The translations under genes were made by a program, and so were the position numbers. A DNA stretch of 64,000 nt from contig NZ_FXYF01000006.1 in the NCBI RefSeq assembly GCF_900184945.1, positions 1-64,000 on the forward strand, given 5' to 3'. Every line of letters starts with the position of its first letter. The first letter of the stretch is position 1. The stretch comes from Antarctobacter aquimaris. GTDB taxonomy: Bacteria > Pseudomonadota > Alphaproteobacteria > Rhodobacterales > Rhodobacteraceae. A model generated the notes under the pieces. That model saw only the letters and a program-made list of their open reading frames with translations, did not search any database and was not told the origin of the DNA. Of the stretch, positions 15,102 to 62,079 are shown in pieces.

Positions 15102-15423
15102 CATGCGCGCCCGGTGCCCCGGCCGCTGTCACATTTCGTGATCGGTGCGCCGCCGTCGTGCGCGCGCCGCGTGGCGGCTGAAACATTCTGCCCTGCAGCA
15201 TGGTGAATTCGGCGGGTTTCGTTACATCGACCGCCGGGAAATCGTCCCGGGTCAGGCTTTCCGGACCTTGAAACTTCACGGCATCGACACGGGGCCGCAC
15301 GGCCGCGTGATGCACGGGCCCGTGAGTCGCTTGTGGCACGGCGGGCCTGCACTCTGTGTCTACCGGATGGCCTGGACGCCACCGGCCAAGTTTCACAACA
15401 CCCAGTCCCTGAAAGGAACTCAC
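15102..15423 (+). promoter_or_regulatory. Non-coding region upstream of the bufferin operon
   Basis: No convincing gene was found in these 322 bases. The segment must carry the promoter of the DUF2282 operon. TGAAAC hexamers at 15179 and 15269 and a GTTACA at 15221 look like extracytoplasmic-function sigma -35 elements, but none has a matching -10 at the right distance. GAAAGGAACTCAC at the 3' end is the ribosome site for bufA. Confidence 0.35.
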
Positions 15424-15723
15424 ATGTCCTCCAAGATCAAGACCGCCGCTCTCGTTGGTATCGTCGCCGCCGCCGTTGCCGCCACGGGCGCGCATGCCGC
15501 CGACCAGGAAAAGTGCTTTGGCGTCTCGCTTGCCGGCGAGAACGACTGCGCCGCCGGTCCCGGCACCACCTGCGCCGGCACCTCGAAGGTCGACTACCAG
15601 GGCAACGCCTGGACGCTGGTCGACGCCGGCACCTGCGCCGAGATCGAACTGCCCGCCATGGCGGACGGCAGCGCGCGCATGGGGTCGCTCGAGGCGCTCG
15701 AGCGCGACCTGCCCCAGATGTGA
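15424..15723 (+). CDS. bufA: DUF2282 family bufferin precursor (BufA1-like RiPP metallophore)
   Basis: The 99-residue protein has a signal peptide (about 1-25, cleavage after GAHA) followed by four cysteines at 31, 42, 50 and 71 in [18 protein letters not shown] and [10 protein letters not shown] contexts. This is the DUF2282 pattern of the copper-sequestering bufferins, whose cysteines are modified by MNIO enzymes and which act in the periplasm. The MNIO enzyme, DUF2063 partner and DoxX protein follow in order, which makes the assignment firm at family level. A hairpin separates it from bufB, consistent with a higher yield of precursor. Confidence 0.9.
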
Positions 15724-15825: not shown

Positions 15826-16674
15826 ATGTTCGACACCGCCAGGTCCCTGCCGCCGATGCCCGGAGTCGGCTACAAGCCGCAGCATTTCAAGGCGATCCTC
15901 GAGGATGCGGCCCCGGTCGGCTGGCTGGAGGTGCATGCCGAGAACTACATGGGCGAAGGCGGCCGCCCGCTGGCGCAGTTGCGCGCCCTGTCCGAGCGGT
16001 TTCCGATCTCCGTGCACGGCGTCGGCCTGTCGATCGGCGGCCCCGAGCCGCTGGATACAGACCACCTCGCCCGGCTGAAGCACCTTGTCGGCTGGCTCGA
16101 CCCGGCCAGCTTTTCCGAACACCTGGCCTGGTCGACCCATGACGGCCATTTCCTGAACGACCTGCTGCCCCTGCCCTATACCCCGGCCACGCTGGGCCGC
16201 GTCGCCTGCCACATCGACCAGGTACAGGAGGCGCTGGGGCGGCGGATGCTGCTGGAGAACCCTTCGTCCTACCTGGCTTTTGCCGAAAGCACGCTGGAAG
16301 AGACCGAGTTCCTGCACGAACTGACCCGCCGCACCGGCTGCGGCCTGCTGCTGGACGTCAACAACGTCTTCGTCTCGGCCACCAACCTTGGCTATTCCCC
16401 GCAGGACTACATCGCGCGGTTCCCGCTGGAGGCGGTGGGCGAGCTGCACATCGCCGGCCACGACGAGGATCAGGACGATTTCGGTGCGCCGCTGCTGATC
16501 GACAGCCATGGCCGCGAGACGGCCGAGCCGGTCTGGACGCTGCTCGATCTCGTGCTGTCGCGCGCAGGTGCGCTGCCCGTTCTGATCGAATGGGACACCG
16601 ACGTGCCGGACTGGCCGGTGCTGGCCGCCGAGGCGGCGCGGGCCGCGACGGCGCTGGCCCGGGTGCCGGCATGA
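15826..16674 (+). CDS. bufB: MNIO (DUF692) family multinuclear iron oxidative enzyme
   Basis: The 282-residue TIM-barrel protein shows the iron-ligand pattern of MNIO enzymes: [12 protein letters not shown] (about 33-44), [65 protein letters not shown] and [10 protein letters not shown]. Relatives modify cysteines of RiPP precursors, for example to oxazolone/thioamide in methanobactin (MbnB) or thiooxazole in bufferins. The substrate is probably the neighbouring DUF2282 protein. It overlaps the partner gene bufC by four bases (ATGA). Confidence 0.94.
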
Positions 16675-17522
16675 GCGGACGGGTCCCGGTGTTGGGGGCG
16701 CTGCCCCCGTCGCCTGCGGCGACTCCGCCGGGATGTTTTCCGCCAGAAGAAACCCTGCGCGCGGGCACAGGTGACATAGCAAGCGCCACGGAAACAGCGT
16801 TGCGCGCCGGGCTGCTGGATGCCGTAGTCCCGGTTCCCGAGGGGCTGACCGATGGCGCGGGACGCCCGGCGGGGCGAAGATATTCGGTCTATCGCAACAA
16901 CGTGGCGGTGGCCCTGCACGAGGCGCTGGAGGCCGGGTTTCCGGCGGTGGCGCGGCTGATCGGACCGGAGAACTTTTCTCGCGCGGCGGGGATCTACTTG
17001 CGCACAGAGCCACCCGCAACGCCGCTGATGATGCAGTATGGCGCGGGGTTTCCCGCATTTCTCGAAAGCATCGAAGCGCTGCGCCCGATCGGCTACCTGG
17101 GCGACGTGGCGCGGCTGGAGCTGGCCATGCGGCAAAGCTATCACGCCGCCGACGCGCCGGCGCTGGACCCTGTGCTGCTGGCCGGCCTGGACGAGGATGC
17201 CCTGCTGCGCGCGCGCCTGCGCCTCGCGCCTGCGACCCGGGTGCTGCGCTCGGCCTGGCCGGTGCTGTCGGTCTACCGCTACACGCTGGAGCCGGGCAGC
17301 CCCAAGCCGACTGCCCGCGCCGAGGAGGTGGTGATCACCCGACCCGGCCTCGACCCGCAGCCGCACCTGCTGCCGCCGGGCGGCGCGGATTTCCTGGCCG
17401 CCCTCGACGCGGGGGCCGCCTTTGGCGCGGCGCTGGAGCGGGCCGGCACGGATTTCGACCTGGGCGCCACGCTGCCCCTGCTGTTGCAGCAGGGCGCCTT
17501 TACCGACCTATTGACCGAGTGA
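16671..17522 (+). CDS. bufC: DUF2063 family MNIO partner protein with a repeat-derived N-terminal insert
   Basis: The 283-residue protein has the DUF2063 N-terminal domain recognisable by [23 protein letters not shown] (about 66-88), followed by [17 protein letters not shown] and a C-terminal domain. Relatives bind the RiPP precursor and present it to the MNIO enzyme. The start overlaps bufB by four bases. Residues about 8-27 ([15 protein letters not shown] and following) are encoded by a copy of the intergenic REP-like repeat (16694-16752) that has entered the reading frame between the start codon and the conserved domain. Other DUF2063 proteins normally begin near [11 protein letters not shown] (here about residue 40). 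Confidence 0.9.
16694..16752 (+). repeat. REP-like element embedded in the bufC coding sequence
   Basis: GGGGGCGCTGCCCCC, then GTCGCCTGCGGCGAC, then CCGGGATGTTTTCCGCCAG and AAGAAAC reproduce the intergenic element seen at 48491 and elsewhere. It is fully translated within bufC. Confidence 0.85.
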
Positions 17523-23837: not shown

Positions 23838-24749
23838 TCACACCGGCGCGCGCTTGACCAGTCCCAGTTTCTCGCGGACCTCGGCGGGGCCGATCACCCG
23901 CGCCCCCAGCCGTTCGATGATGCCCACCGCGCGGTCCACCAGCTGCGCATTGGTCGCCAGCACGCCCTTGTCAAGCCACAGGTTGTCCTCCAGCCCGACG
24001 CGCACGTTGCCGCCCGCCAGCACGGCCGCCGCCACGTAGGCCATCTGGTTACGCCCCAGCGCAAAGGCGCTGAAACACCACTCCTTCGGCACGTTGTTCA
24101 CCATGGCCATGAACGTGTTGATGTCGTCCGGCGCGCCCCAGGGCACGCCCATGCACAGCTGCACCAGCGCCGGGCCTTCCAGCACGCCTTCTTCCACCAG
24201 CTGCTTGGCAAACCACAGGTGCCCGGTGTCAAAGGCCTCGATCTCCGGCTTGACCCCCAGTGCGGTCATCCGCGCCCCCATGTCGCGCAACATGCCCGGC
24301 GTGTTGGTCATGACATAATCTGCTTCGGCAAAGTTCATCGTGCCGCAGTCCAGCGTGCAGATTTCCGGCAAACATTCAGCCACATGGGCCACGCGCTCCT
24401 CGGCACCCACCATGTCGGTGCCCGCCTCGCGGAGCGGCAGAGGCGCGGAGGTCGGGCCAAAGATGATGTCGCCGCCCATGCCGGCGGTCAGGTTCAGCAC
24501 CACGTCGACCTCGGCGTCACGGATCCGGTCCGTCACCTCGCGGTAATAGTCCAGCCGGCGCGATGGCTTGCCGGTCTCGGGGTCGCGCACGTGGCAATGC
24601 ACGACGGCGGCCCCCGCCTTGGCCGCGGCAATCGCGCTCTCGGCGATCTGTTTCGGTGAGCGCGGCACATGCGGGCTGCGGTCCTGCGTCCCGCCCGATC
24701 CGGTCACGGCACAGGTGATGAAAACCTCGCGGTTCATCTCAAGCGGCAT
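23838..24749 (-). CDS. Beta-keto acid cleavage enzyme (BKACE, DUF849), dehydrocarnitine-type candidate
   Basis: The 303-residue TIM-barrel protein begins with [17 protein letters not shown] after a short extension. It carries zinc ligands in [12 protein letters not shown] (about 49-60) and the catalytic Glu in [15 protein letters not shown] (about 258-272). BKACE enzymes exchange a beta-keto acid with acetyl-CoA to give acetoacetate and a shorter CoA ester. The sequence style recalls enzymes found in carnitine clusters that act on dehydrocarnitine; this is a family-level inference. It overlaps the ligase gene by 11 bases; the ATG at 24749 has a GGGAG site. Confidence 0.88.
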
Positions 24750-26850
24750 CTTCTTCTCCCTTGTCTTCGATTGTTCGCAAGCGGATCAGCGCATCCACCG
24801 CAACCGCGCGCCCGGGCGCGCAGAGCAGCGGGTTGACCTCGACTTCCTCGACCTGCGCGGCATGGTCGGTGACAAACCCCTGCACCGCAAGCACAGCCTG
24901 CACGATCGCTTCCATATCCGCCGCGGCCGCGCCGCGATACCCCGACAGCAGAGGCGCGATGCGCAGCCGGGCCAGCGCCTGGCGCAGGTCCTCATCCGTC
25001 ACCGGCAGCATCAGCGTCACTGTGTCCTGAAGGATCTCGGTCCAGACCCCGCCCGCCCCCAGCGTCAGCACGAATCCATGCGCCGGGTCGCGCAGCACGC
25101 CCACCAGCAGTTCCGCCACCGCGCCAGTCACCATCTCCTCGACCAGATAGCCCCGCGCGCCCATGGCCTCTGCCGCGGCCAGAACCTCTGCCGCCGAGCC
25201 AAGGCCCAGCTTCACCGCCCCGGCCTCGCTCTTGTGGGCAAAGCCCTCACCCTTCAGCACCACCGGAAAGCCGATCCCGGCCGCCGCCTGCGCCGCCGCC
25301 TCCGGCGTGGCACAGCGCACAAGGCGCGGCACGACCAGCCCATGCGCCCGCAACAGCGCCTTGGCCTCGCCTTCCGCGACCACGCCCATGGCATCTTTGG
25401 TCCCGAAATATCCCGGGGGAGTTGCCGCAGGCGACGGGGGCAGCGCCCCCACCTTCTCCGCCACCAGCACCGGCAGCGGGGCAACCTCCTGCCCCAGGAA
25501 GGCCGCCGCTGCAACCGCCTCCAAGGCGGCGGGAATGTCGCACAGCGGCACGATCCCCAGATCGACCAGCCGTGCCGCCACGTCCTCGGGCAGCGTCTCC
25601 ACCAGGCTCGACAGCACCGCCAGGGGCGCCTCTGCCTGCACCCCCGCCATGGCCTCGATCACCGGGTCCCAGTCGGCCGCCGAACAGCGGTCGCCGCGCG
25701 GGAAATCCAGCACCACGATGCCGAGGCCGATGTCCTCGCCCGCCATCAGCCCGGCGAAACAGGCCCGCATCGCCGCGACATTGCCCCAGATATAGGTGTG
25801 GTAATCCAGCGGGTTGGCCAGCGCCACCCTGGGCCCCAGGGCCTCTCTCAAGGCCCCGCGCTGCGCCGCGACCAACGGAGGAAACACCACCGCGTGGCGC
25901 AGCGCCGAATCCGCCATCAGGCTTGCCTCGCCGCCAGAACATGACGCCGACACCAGCCGGCCCGACCGCAACGGCCCGGCCACATGCAGGATCTTCAGGG
26001 TCTCCAGCAAGGCGCCCAAGGACGATACCTGCGCGATCCCGATCCGCCGCAGGAAGGCGCGCGCGCCTGCGTCACTCCCGGTCAGCGAGGCGGTGTGCGA
26101 CACCGCCGCAGCGTTGGCCTGCTCCGACGCCCCCAGCTTCAGCGCCACGATCCGCTTGCCCAGCGCCCGCGCCCGCGCCGCCAGCGCCTCGAAGCCGCGC
26201 ACATCGCGGATGCCCTCGATATAGAGCCCCAGCGCTGTGATCCGCTCGTCCTCCAGCAGCGCCATGCCCAGCGCCGACAGGTCGACCTGCGCCTGGTTGC
26301 CGGCCGTGCCCACAAAGGCAATCGGCAGGCCGCGCCGCTGCATCGTCAGGTTCAACGCCACGTTCGAGCTTTGCGACAGGATCGCCACGCCGCGCGTCAC
26401 AGGCACCAGCCCATGCTGGTCCGGCCACAGGGCCACCCGCCCCAGCGCATTCAGGAAACCGTAACAGTTCGGCCCCAGCAGCGGCATATCGCCCGCCGAT
26501 GCCAGCAGGCGGTCCTGCAAGGCTCCGCCATCCGCCAGTTCCGCCTGCGCCTCGGCAAAACCCGAGGCAAAGCAGACTGCCCCCCCCGCACCACGCGCCG
26601 CCAGGGCAGCCACCGCCTCGATAGTCGCCTCTCGGTTGATGCCGATGAAACTCGCGTCCGGCGCCTCGGGCAGCGCCTCGATCGAGGCGAAGCACGGCGC
26701 GCCGCCGATCTCGGCGCGTGACGGGTGTACCGGCCAGACCGCGCCGTCAAACCCGAACTTTCGGCACTCGCGGATCACGTTTGCGCACCATGCGCCGCCC
26801 CCGATCACGGCGATGGAGCGTGGGTTCAGCAGGCGACCCAGCCGACTCAT
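24739..26850 (-). CDS. ADP-forming acyl-CoA ligase (CoA-binding plus ATP-grasp) with a repeat-derived linker
   Basis: The 703-residue protein has a CoA-binding domain (about 1-130, [20 protein letters not shown]), a succinyl-CoA-ligase-like domain with the phosphohistidine segment [21 protein letters not shown] (His near 254) and a C-terminal ATP-grasp domain (about 490-700, [19 protein letters not shown]). Relatives convert an acid, ATP and CoA to acyl-CoA, ADP and phosphate. Residues about 467-487 ([15 protein letters not shown] and following) are encoded by a REP-like intergenic repeat (25392-25450) located at the linker before the ATP-grasp domain. It lies between the acyl-CoA dehydrogenase and BKACE genes. 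Confidence 0.88.
25392..25450 (-). repeat. REP-like element embedded in the acyl-CoA ligase gene
   Basis: On the minus strand GGGGGCGCTGCCCCC, GTCGCCTGCGGCAAC, CCCCCGGGATATTTCGGG and ACCAAAGATG follow each other as in the intergenic copies. The segment is translated in frame. Confidence 0.85.
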
Positions 26851-31071: not shown

Positions 31072-31080
31072 CTCCCCGGC

Positions 31081-31141
31081 TTCTTTGGTTTCAAAAATAC
31101 CTCGGGGGGAGTTGCGGCACGCAACGGGGGGCAGCGCCCCC
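31081..31141 (-). repeat. REP-like intergenic element
   Basis: TTCTTTGGTTTCAAAAATAC and CTCGGGGGGA, an inverted repeat (GTTGCGGCACGCAAC) and GGGGGGCAGCGCCCCCT follow in order. It shares this layout with copies at 45265, 48563, 55650 and 62015. It sits between the transketolase and SDR genes. Confidence 0.8.
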
Positions 31142-31166
31142 TCCCCGGCCAACCACAGGAAATCCA

Positions 31167-38769: not shown

Positions 38770-38824
38770 GGAGCGAGGGGCCAGCCCCTCGCGCTCCCCG
38801 GGATACTTGTGGCCAGAAGAAACC
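38770..38824 (+). repeat. REP-like element variant
   Basis: GGGAGCGAGGGGCCAGCCCC and TCGCGCTCCCCGGGATACTT are followed by GTGGCCAGAAGAAACC. The layout matches the forward copies at 16694 and 48491, but with a longer first hairpin. It lies between the enolase-superfamily and PhyH genes. Confidence 0.7.
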
Positions 38825-38851
38825 TGACCCGTCTTGCAAGGAGATGACACA

Positions 38852-41462: not shown

Positions 41463-41507
41463 GCAAGAATTTTCGAAAATTCTTGCAAATTTCCGTGCGG
41501 AAATTTG
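41463..41507. repeat. Two palindromes after the UxaA-type gene
   Basis: A perfect 24-base palindrome (core AATTTTCGAAAATT, 41463-41486) is followed by CAAATTTCCG-TG-CGGAAATTTG (41486-41507). The second arm plus GGCCGCCC is nearly the same as at 44433. The cluster lies between the UxaA-type and Gfo/Idh stop/start codons. Confidence 0.75.
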
Positions 41508-41529
41508 GCCGCCCGGTGGCACCGGTTTC

Positions 41530-44411: not shown

Positions 44412-44454
44412 AAAAATCGTCCACGATTTTTGCAAATTCCGTCCACGGAATTTG
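44412..44454. repeat. Two palindromes between the DMT transporter and a convergent SDR
   Basis: AAAAATCGT-CC-ACGATTTTT (44412-44431) and CAAATTCCGT-CC-ACGGAATTTG (44433-44454) stand in succession, followed by GCCGCCCC. The second unit closely resembles the unit at 41486. Confidence 0.75.
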
Positions 44455-44510
44455 GCCGCCCCACCCCGACGGCGCGCGCGGACGGGCCGCGCCCGACAAG
44501 GCCGCCGGCC

Positions 44511-45248: not shown

Positions 45249-45264
45249 GTCCCTGCGTCTCCTG

Positions 45265-45322
45265 TCTTCTTTGGTTTTGAAAATACCTCGGGGGGGGCCG
45301 CAGGCGGGGGGCAGCGCCCCCC
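45265..45322 (-). repeat. REP-like intergenic element
   Basis: TCTTCTTTGGTTTTGAAAAT and ACCTCGGGGGGG, a shortened inverted repeat and GGGGGGCAGCGCCCCCC follow in order. The second hairpin is reduced compared with the 62015 copy. Confidence 0.75.
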
Positions 45323-47795: not shown

Positions 47796-48490
47796 TCGGA
47801 GAACCGCCCAAGCTGACGCTGATCAAGGGCACACCGCGCCCGACGGCCGCGCAGATCGCCGCCTTCCAGGGGGTCGAGACCGCGTTTCTCTGCGACGCCA
47901 TGGGCGGCCTCGGCGCCATGCACACCAGCATCGGCCCCATCGGCTTTGGCCGCGACCTCGACTGCCGCGCGGCCGGCCCGGCCCTGGTGGCCGACAGCGG
48001 CCCCGGCGACATCATCGCGACCCTTGCCGCCGTGCACCGGCTGACGCCCGGCGACATCCTGGTGCACGCGGCCCACGGCCACCAGGGCTGCGCCACCATC
48101 GGCGACCAGCTCTCGGGGATGTTGAAGAACGCAGGTGCCGCAGGCTTCGTCACCGATGGTCCGATGCGCGACTACGCGGGCATCGTCGCCGCCGGCCTGC
48201 CCTCCTGGTGCACTGGGCTGAACCCCAACTCGCCCTTCACCTCCGGCCCCGGCACGCTGGGCGGCAGCGCGGTTGTCGGCGGCTGCCAGATCGCCACCGG
48301 CGACATGATCGTTGCCGACCGCAATGGCGTGGTGGTGATCCCCTTCGCACAGATCGACAAGGTGCTGGCCCGGTTGAAGGATGTGGCCCGGCTGGAGGCC
48401 GAACTGGAAGCCAAGGTCAAGGCGGGCTTCCGCGATCCGCTGGACCTGGACGCCATGTTGGCCGACGGCACTGCGGTGGAGATCGGGTAA
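47792..48490 (+). CDS. RraA family protein (aldolase/4-carboxy-4-hydroxy-2-oxoadipate aldolase-like)
   Basis: The 232-residue protein has the RraA fold with DILVHAAHGHQGCATIGDQLS, GAAGFVTDGPMRDYAGI (the metal-binding/active site D-G-x-x-R-D, about 118-127) and GDMIVADRNGVVVIP (about 170-184). Family enzymes are class II aldolases for 4-hydroxy-2-oxo acids or pyruvate-forming splits, and RNase E regulators. In this island an aldolase for a 2-keto acid is the better guess. It is coupled to the preceding small protein. Confidence 0.88.
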   Translation: MIGEPPKLTLIKGTPRPTAAQIAAFQGVETAFLCDAMGGLGAMHTSIGPIGFGRDLDCRAAGPALVADSGPGDIIATLAAVHRLTPGDILVHAAHGHQGCATIGDQLSGMLKNAGAAGFVTDGPMRDYAGIVAAGLPSWCTGLNPNSPFTSGPGTLGGSAVVGGCQIATGDMIVADRNGVVVIPFAQIDKVLARLKDVARLEAELEAKVKAGFRDPLDLDAMLADGTAVEIG

Positions 48491-48627
48491 GGGGGCGCTG
48501 CCCCCGTCGCCTGCGGCGACTCCCCCGGAGGTATTTGCGCAGAGAAGAAACACGGGCTTGCGCTTCTTCTTTGTGAAAATACTCCCGGGGTGAATGGTCC
48601 GCAGGACCAGAGGGGCAGCGCCCCTCG
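48491..48627. repeat. Two REP-like elements in face-to-face arrangement
   Basis: A forward copy (48491-48550, GGGGGCGCTGCCCCC ... CAGAGAAGAAAC) is followed 12 bases later by a reverse copy (48563-48627, CTTCTTCTTTGTGAAAATAC ... AGGGGCAGCGCCCCT). The pair can fold into one large stem and lies between convergent RraA and PhyH genes. Confidence 0.8.
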
Positions 48628-55636: not shown

Positions 55637-55649
55637 GCCCGGCCTTTCC

Positions 55650-55714
55650 CTTCTTTGGTTTGAAAAATACCTCGGGGGGAGCCTGCCACAGGCAGGCGGG
55701 GGGCGGCGCCCCCC
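55650..55714 (-). repeat. REP-like intergenic element
   Basis: TTCTTTGGTTTGAAAAATAC and CTCGGGGGGA, then GCCTGCCACAGGCAGGC and GGGGGGCGGCGCCCCCC follow. It lies in the 105-base gap between the DenD-like and xylose-dehydrogenase-like genes. Confidence 0.8.
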
Positions 55715-56504: not shown

Positions 56505-56621
56505 GGATCGCGTGCCGCGATCCGACCGGCCGGGGGCTCTGCCCCCGGACCCCCGGGATATTTCGGGCCAGAAGAAGACTGGGCGCGCGCGGCACCGGGC
56601 GGAGCGTCGACCTCCGCCCGG
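56505..56621. repeat. Hairpins and a REP-like variant between the SDR and cysK
   Basis: GGATCGCG / CGCGATCC (56505-56523) comes first, then a GGGGGCTCTGCCCCCGGACC and CCGGGATATTTCGGGCCAGA and AGAAGAC REP-like unit (about 56532-56579), then CCGGGCGGAG / CTCCGCCCGG (56595-56621). The last hairpin is 10 bases past the cysK stop on the minus strand and can terminate that gene. Confidence 0.65.
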
Positions 56622-61997: not shown

Positions 61998-62014
61998 CCC
62001 GCGCCCGGCCCCCG

Positions 62015-62079
62015 GCTTCTTTGGTTTGAAAAATACCTCGGGGGAGTCGGCCGCAGGCCGACGGGGGCAGCGCCCCCTC
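62015..62079 (-). repeat. REP-like intergenic element (full-length copy)
   Basis: CTTCTTTGGTTTGAAAAATA and CCTCGGGGGA, then GTCGGCCGCAGGCCGAC and GGGGGCAGCGCCCCCTC form a canonical copy in the gap between the amidohydrolase and the monooxygenase genes. Confidence 0.85.

Follow-up and report, generated by a model that had tools for sequence, protein, structure and literature searches.

A three-gene locus in the stretch of DNA analysed here (64,000 nucleotides, referred to as the window) raises the question of how a dispersed palindromic repeat came to lie in the reading frame of a protein N-terminus. The locus encodes a bufferin-type precursor, an MNIO enzyme (BufB) and a DUF2063 protein (BufC) (Table 1). 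DUF2063 proteins are known partners of MNIO enzymes (PMC12452194), and bufC, which contains the PF09836 domain and adjoins the MNIO gene, falls into the partner class defined by DUF2063 plus RRE. The ATG of bufC at 16671 overlaps the stop codon of bufB (TGA, 16672-16674) as ATGA, and in this longest reading residues 8-29 of BufC are encoded by the repeat. Very probably, a non-coding, REP-like element found throughout the family was at first intergenic at this junction, and the reading frame of bufC appears to have slid back over it. Nothing suggests that the element is relevant to copper-peptide modification.

Table 1. Genes, candidate start codons and copies of the repeat element in the window
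Feature	Position	Strand	Basis
bufA-like precursor gene (DUF2282, bufferin-type)	15268..15723	+	Pfam PF10048, E 1.6e-23; gene caller
bufB, MNIO enzyme (MbnB_TglH_ChrH)	15826..16674	+	Pfam PF05114, E 2.9e-104
bufC, DUF2063 partner, longest reading from ATGA; alternative start TTG 16800	16671..17522	+	PF09836 from residue 43; ATGA is the usual family junction
REP-like element copy, bufB/bufC junction	16693..16757	+	nhmmer, E 2e-12; multiple alignment of copies
Stem-loop A, GGGGGC-GCT-GCCCCC (GGGGGCGCTGCCCCC)	16694..16708	+	sequence inspection; fold
Stem-loop B, GTCGCC-TGC-GGCGAC (GTCGCCTGCGGCGAC)	16709..16723	+	sequence inspection; fold
ATA in place of the ATG that starts bufC in three Mameliella species (L226-L228)	16776..16778	+	alignment
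TTG at the conserved Phe position; the one standard in-frame start 3' of the element close to the conserved domain	16800..16802	+	alignment
ADP-forming acyl-CoA ligase with in-frame element insert	24742..26847	-	PF13607, PF13380, PF13549; insert alignment
Element copy in the ligase gene, in the linker that immediately precedes ATP-grasp_5 (from residue 488)	25385..25451	-	nhmmer, E 2e-13
Intergenic element copy	31073..31142	-	nhmmer
Tail-only remnant, CCGGGATACTT..CCAGAAGAAACC	38795..38826	+	nhmmer, weak (E 0.007)
Intergenic element copy	45261..45321	-	nhmmer
Intergenic element copy, directly 3' of a TAA stop; left half of inverted dimer	48490..48557	+	nhmmer
Right half of inverted dimer	48558..48624	-	nhmmer
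Intergenic element copy	55648..55713	-	nhmmer
Shortened element copy	56532..56583	+	nhmmer
Intergenic element copy	62009..62078	-	nhmmer

The element is approximately 65 nucleotides long and consists of two GC hairpins followed by a tail (TATTT..CCAGAAGAA); in the junction copy, the tail 3' of stem B is TCCGCCGGGATGTTTTCCGCCAGAAGAA, of the type CCCCCGGGATATTT..GCCAGAAGAA. The stem A pattern has 11 matches in the window versus 2.1 expected, so the element and peptide shared between genes are not due to chance. An earlier note on this DNA had proposed that one repeat encodes both the N-terminus of BufC and a segment of an acyl-CoA ligase, and both translations agree with it: 13 element-encoded residues are identical, followed by C in BufC and Y in the ligase. 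The inverted dimer folds with z = -8.4, and single copies fold little better than shuffled sequences (z -0.3 to -2.7). Tail-only remnants (CCGGGATATTT..CCAGAAGAAAC) without hairpins occur at 38795-38826 of the window and at several other sites in the genome. The window also has a pair of AT-rich palindromic repeats of another kind (AAGAATTTTCGAAAATTCTTGCAAATTTCCGTGCGGAAATTTGGCCGCCC, at 41465-41514 and 44412-44461), not related to the REP-like element.

A profile of the element (nhmmer), run on 2.06 Mb of the 5.3 Mb genome, gave 91 hits, 78 of them at E<1e-6, as befits the dispersed, REP-like palindrome that the earlier note had recognised; by extrapolation, the whole genome contains roughly 200 copies. 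The core of stem A has 91 exact copies in the genome and 254 copies at two or fewer mismatches, compared to 102 for a reversed control. Of the 249 genera of the family that were sampled, 177 contain this core, for which the reversed-pattern control was close to zero. With genes called by a hexamer model, which called bufB and the ligase correctly, 73 of the 78 copies in the 2.06 Mb are intergenic: 28 between convergent genes, 40 between tandem genes and 5 between divergent genes, for which the available space is 30, 108 and 68 kb, respectively (convergent excess p ~6e-7, divergent deficit p ~1e-7; binomial, by bases). The median distance from the element to the 3' end of a gene is 15 nucleotides, and 60 of 68 distances are 35 nucleotides or less; the junction copy, about 18 nucleotides 3' of the bufB stop codon, has the spacing typical of the family. 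In genome G129, the full list of copies shows mixed orientation. One called gene (G000 C32:86122-86391) ends within an element (..IFRQGALPPSP*), another overlap of an element with a gene end.

Stem A is nearly constant among the copies, and stem B has about 40 different pairs of arms. In the ligase of the Mameliella species L233 and among genome-wide copies, variants of stem B are swapped; one of them, GTCTCCCTTCGGTCGAC, resembles a hybrid of two perfect palindromes, GTCTCCCTGCGGGAGAC and GTCGACCTGCGGTCGAC, both of which are present in the genome. The pattern of variants suggests that stem B is swapped by conversion or by template switching at the hairpin tip.

The location of the element resembles that of the REPs of the GTAG and CGTC superfamilies, which are short, high-copy palindromes situated mostly between convergent or tandem genes, less than 20 bp from their 3' ends, and rarely between divergent genes, and which form inverted dimers (De Gregorio et al. 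2013, PMC3733652). Some REPs lie inside ORFs or at ORF ends, and the N-terminal cases may be extragenic (PMC3733652). The element of the window is likewise palindromic, present in high copy number, extragenic and close to 3' ends, with inverted dimers and with copies in ORFs or at their ends, but it differs from REPs in having two adjacent hairpins and a conserved tail. Its consensus lacks the GTAG tag, and the RAYT-type transposase (Y1_Tnp, PF01797) expected in the genome for GTAG REPs or REPINs is absent from the 99.99% complete genome, in which control families were detected. CGTC REPs have an unpaired CGTC tag, a stem of 8-9 bp that starts with AT pairs, and a CCA tail, whereas here GTC is part of stem B, the first pairs are G-C and T-A, there is no CCA end, and many copies lack the string CGTC. 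Inverted pairs of units such as 48490-48624 recall BIMEs and REPINs, but only 3 close inverted pairs are found among the 91 hits, and no transposase partner was found. MITEs are defined by terminal inverted repeats and target-site duplication; the two ends of single units of the element are unlike. A search of Rfam with the element gave no match. The Roseobacter-group genera looked for in PMC3733652 are not named there, and no description of the element was found among REPs of Rhodobacteraceae or Roseobacter in the literature searched. Thus, it appears to be a new and apparently undescribed REP-like family, doing what REPs and the rickettsial palindromic elements (RPEs) are known to do.

RPEs are also palindromic repeats tolerated as in-frame protein inserts; they encode a conserved peptide, nearly half of the copies in R. 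conorii are in genes (review PMC10969869), and N-terminal tails encoded by RPE-1 are reported as expressed (PMC3733652). The element differs from them in length (~65 nucleotides versus ~150 bp), in being about 94% intergenic and in having no preferred frame: only 2 of the 78 copies are clearly internal and in frame, and the captured peptides use three different frames. A rickettsial-like invasion of genes, as the earlier note envisaged, is at odds with 73 of the 78 sampled copies being intergenic and close to stop codons. The proposal that the element is built with one privileged open frame was rejected also, as each of the three forward frames is open in 86-95% of copies (63, 66 and 69 of 73 for the three phases). 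On average, 2.71 of 3 forward frames are open per copy; first-order Markov shuffles have 1.97 open, and randomly chosen intergenic 68-mers 2.03. The element is stop-poor in every frame, so that the ends of neighbouring genes can slide across it. In 25 of the 49 genes located just 3' of intergenic copies, the frame stays open across the entire element, and 9 of these have a start codon upstream. Open frames are so common by chance that one alone is no evidence of capture, and that of BufC counts for little by itself.

The claim of two in-frame captures in the window held for the ligase, in which alignment with relatives reveals the predicted clean insertion; for bufC it did not, as the element there was intergenic first. 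Compared to most other genera, the ligase of the window is longer by about 18 residues at an interdomain linker just before the ATP-grasp domain. The insert is in frame there and in five of six Mameliella species, and is reduced to its tail in the sixth (L236); of 29 other genera, nearly all lack it, and L064 has a few extra residues at the site. The ligase of L233 has a different stem B and still keeps the frame. Purifying selection on the insert is not evident from comparison of the window with L221 (10 identical, 5 synonymous and 9 nonsynonymous of 24 codons, versus 321, 193 and 162 in the rest of the gene). A third in-frame copy is found in cobN (G000 C16:568281), where it encodes GGGPSAPHAPAARPPEDICGQKK in another frame. 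This insert is present in four Mameliella species, with a related form in G002 and G087. G302 and G025 lack it and, to judge from split matches, so do G303 and G053. Judged by these alignments, the copies in the ligase and cobN are true internal in-frame insertions. It is a tentative and rather doubtful extension that the family is a recurrent source of expressed protein tails and linkers in Roseobacteraceae, kept in frame over the long term though hairpin variants are replaced, as in the ligase of L233.

The bufB/bufC junction was compared among 61 relatives, the genus of the window being represented by one genome. An ATGA overlap of bufB and bufC, or something close to it, is found in most of them, with bufC beginning a few residues ahead of an invariant Phe. 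The junction element is present in the window, in four other members of the same family (L038, L039, L042 and L044) and, intact (L229, L230 and L231) or as remnants (L226-L228), in all six Mameliella species. The ATG of bufC is 3' of the element in all six of these species; in L226-L230 it follows a separate bufB stop codon, and L226, L227, L228 and L230 have no in-frame overlapping start. In L231, the bufB frame continues across the element to a C-terminus of GALPPSPSGRLPRDIFGQKKPGGGAHA* and overlaps the ATG of bufC, and L044 has an analogous element-encoded BufB tail in another frame. In a tree of BufB plus BufC, the window is nested among Mameliella (98/93 with L226-L229 and L192; 100/99 with all Mameliella), L042, which also has the junction element, is the next outward row, and L039 with L044, and L038, are placed elsewhere. 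Nested as it is among relatives that carry the element at this site, the window species must be younger than the junction copy; across the family, more than one insertion is possible.

The start codon in use in the window is less certain than the history of the junction. The sequence ATG GCC AGC CAT GCC GAG ACA GGT TTT of L226 aligns with ATA GCA AGC GCC ACG GAA ACA GCG TTG at 16776-16802 of the window, where the downstream start of bufC is thus absent. In-frame starts remain on both sides of the element: ATG 16671, GTG 16689 and TTG 16692 precede it or lie at its border, and TTG 16800 follows it. Since the ATG of the relatives is ATA here, bufC now probably starts at the ATGA at 16671 and is translated through the element, or else starts at TTG 16800, with the element only intergenic, never translated, and the long ORF a matter of accident, an alternative that we regard as possible but unlikely. 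TTG 16800 is the choice of the hexamer gene caller, and it occupies the position of the otherwise invariant Phe (61 of 61 relatives; Leu in the window alone), as a newly arisen start codon might. It is also compatible with the poor codon adaptation of 16758-16799 (CAI 0.30, versus an in-frame median of 0.61), with the frequency of frames open through the element by chance, and with the caution expressed about REPs at the N-termini of ORFs (De Gregorio et al., PMC3733652). However, there is no good ribosome-binding site ahead of this TTG, and the window retains, in frame, the ATGA overlap from which bufC starts in most relatives. In addition, the 8 codons following ATA 16776 are protein-like in comparison with relatives, differing mostly at third positions (1/1/7 versus L229; 0/1/4 versus L033), which indicates that the stretch has been translated and favours a start upstream of 16800, although much of this signal may come from the branches of the relatives.

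Insertion of the element in frame after the start of an existing bufC ORF, as the earlier note had it, with the element built for translation in one frame, would account for the frame that is open from ATG 16671, for the same peptide in the ligase and for the ATGA start of bufC in most other genera. This model is already largely refuted by the Mameliella junctions, in which the nearest relatives have the element or its remnant before the bufC start, several of them with no in-frame overlapping start, and the openness of three forward frames in most copies and the use of three frames by the captures also speak against it; it is very improbable. Somewhat less so, though still quite unlikely, is the explanation that the element is mainly a device of RNA 3' ends (a terminator or stabiliser) under selection and not a dispersed selfish repeat. 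The placement 3' of stop codons, the two strong hairpins and the pairing of stem B arms, which is modestly better with their own partners than with arms of other copies (5.27 versus 4.55 of 6), accord with such a role. An intrinsic terminator, however, has a GC hairpin followed by a T run and is oriented with the gene, whereas the element has only weak tail matches and no long T run directly 3' of the hairpins, and its orientation between tandem genes is unbiased (22 copies in the direction of the genes, 18 opposite). The near-random folding of single copies and the lack of an Rfam match count against this role as well.

Under the preferred reading, in which the bufC frame slid back over an intergenic copy, an element that normally lies just 3' of stop codons was present between bufB and bufC before the window species split from Mameliella. 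In the window, bufC would then have lost its own start codon (ATG to ATA, 16776), and its translation would most likely begin at the earlier ATGA overlap (16671), adding an element-encoded N-terminal tail; in one Mameliella species (L231), bufB would have lost its stop codon and gained an element-encoded C-terminal tail. The copies in the ligase and cobN are tolerated in linkers. The locus offers a datable example of a palindromic repeat behind a stop codon becoming protein sequence: in five species the same junction copy is intergenic, in another it encodes a tail of BufB, and in the window it probably encodes a tail of BufC. A further lesson is that a long N-terminus annotated in one of these genomes can be the product of repeat read-through.

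Two other relatives have extended BufC N-termini. The extension in L033 (G053) is of similar length to that of the window and contains no recognisable element; its last residues, SASATENAF, resemble IASATETAL in the window. In Salipiger mucosus (L215), BufC has an N-terminal extension of ~60 residues from a different repeat (GTACGG..CGTACGACCGGTACGG), with the ATGA kept and the frame open, a possible capture of another, unrelated repeat at this junction.
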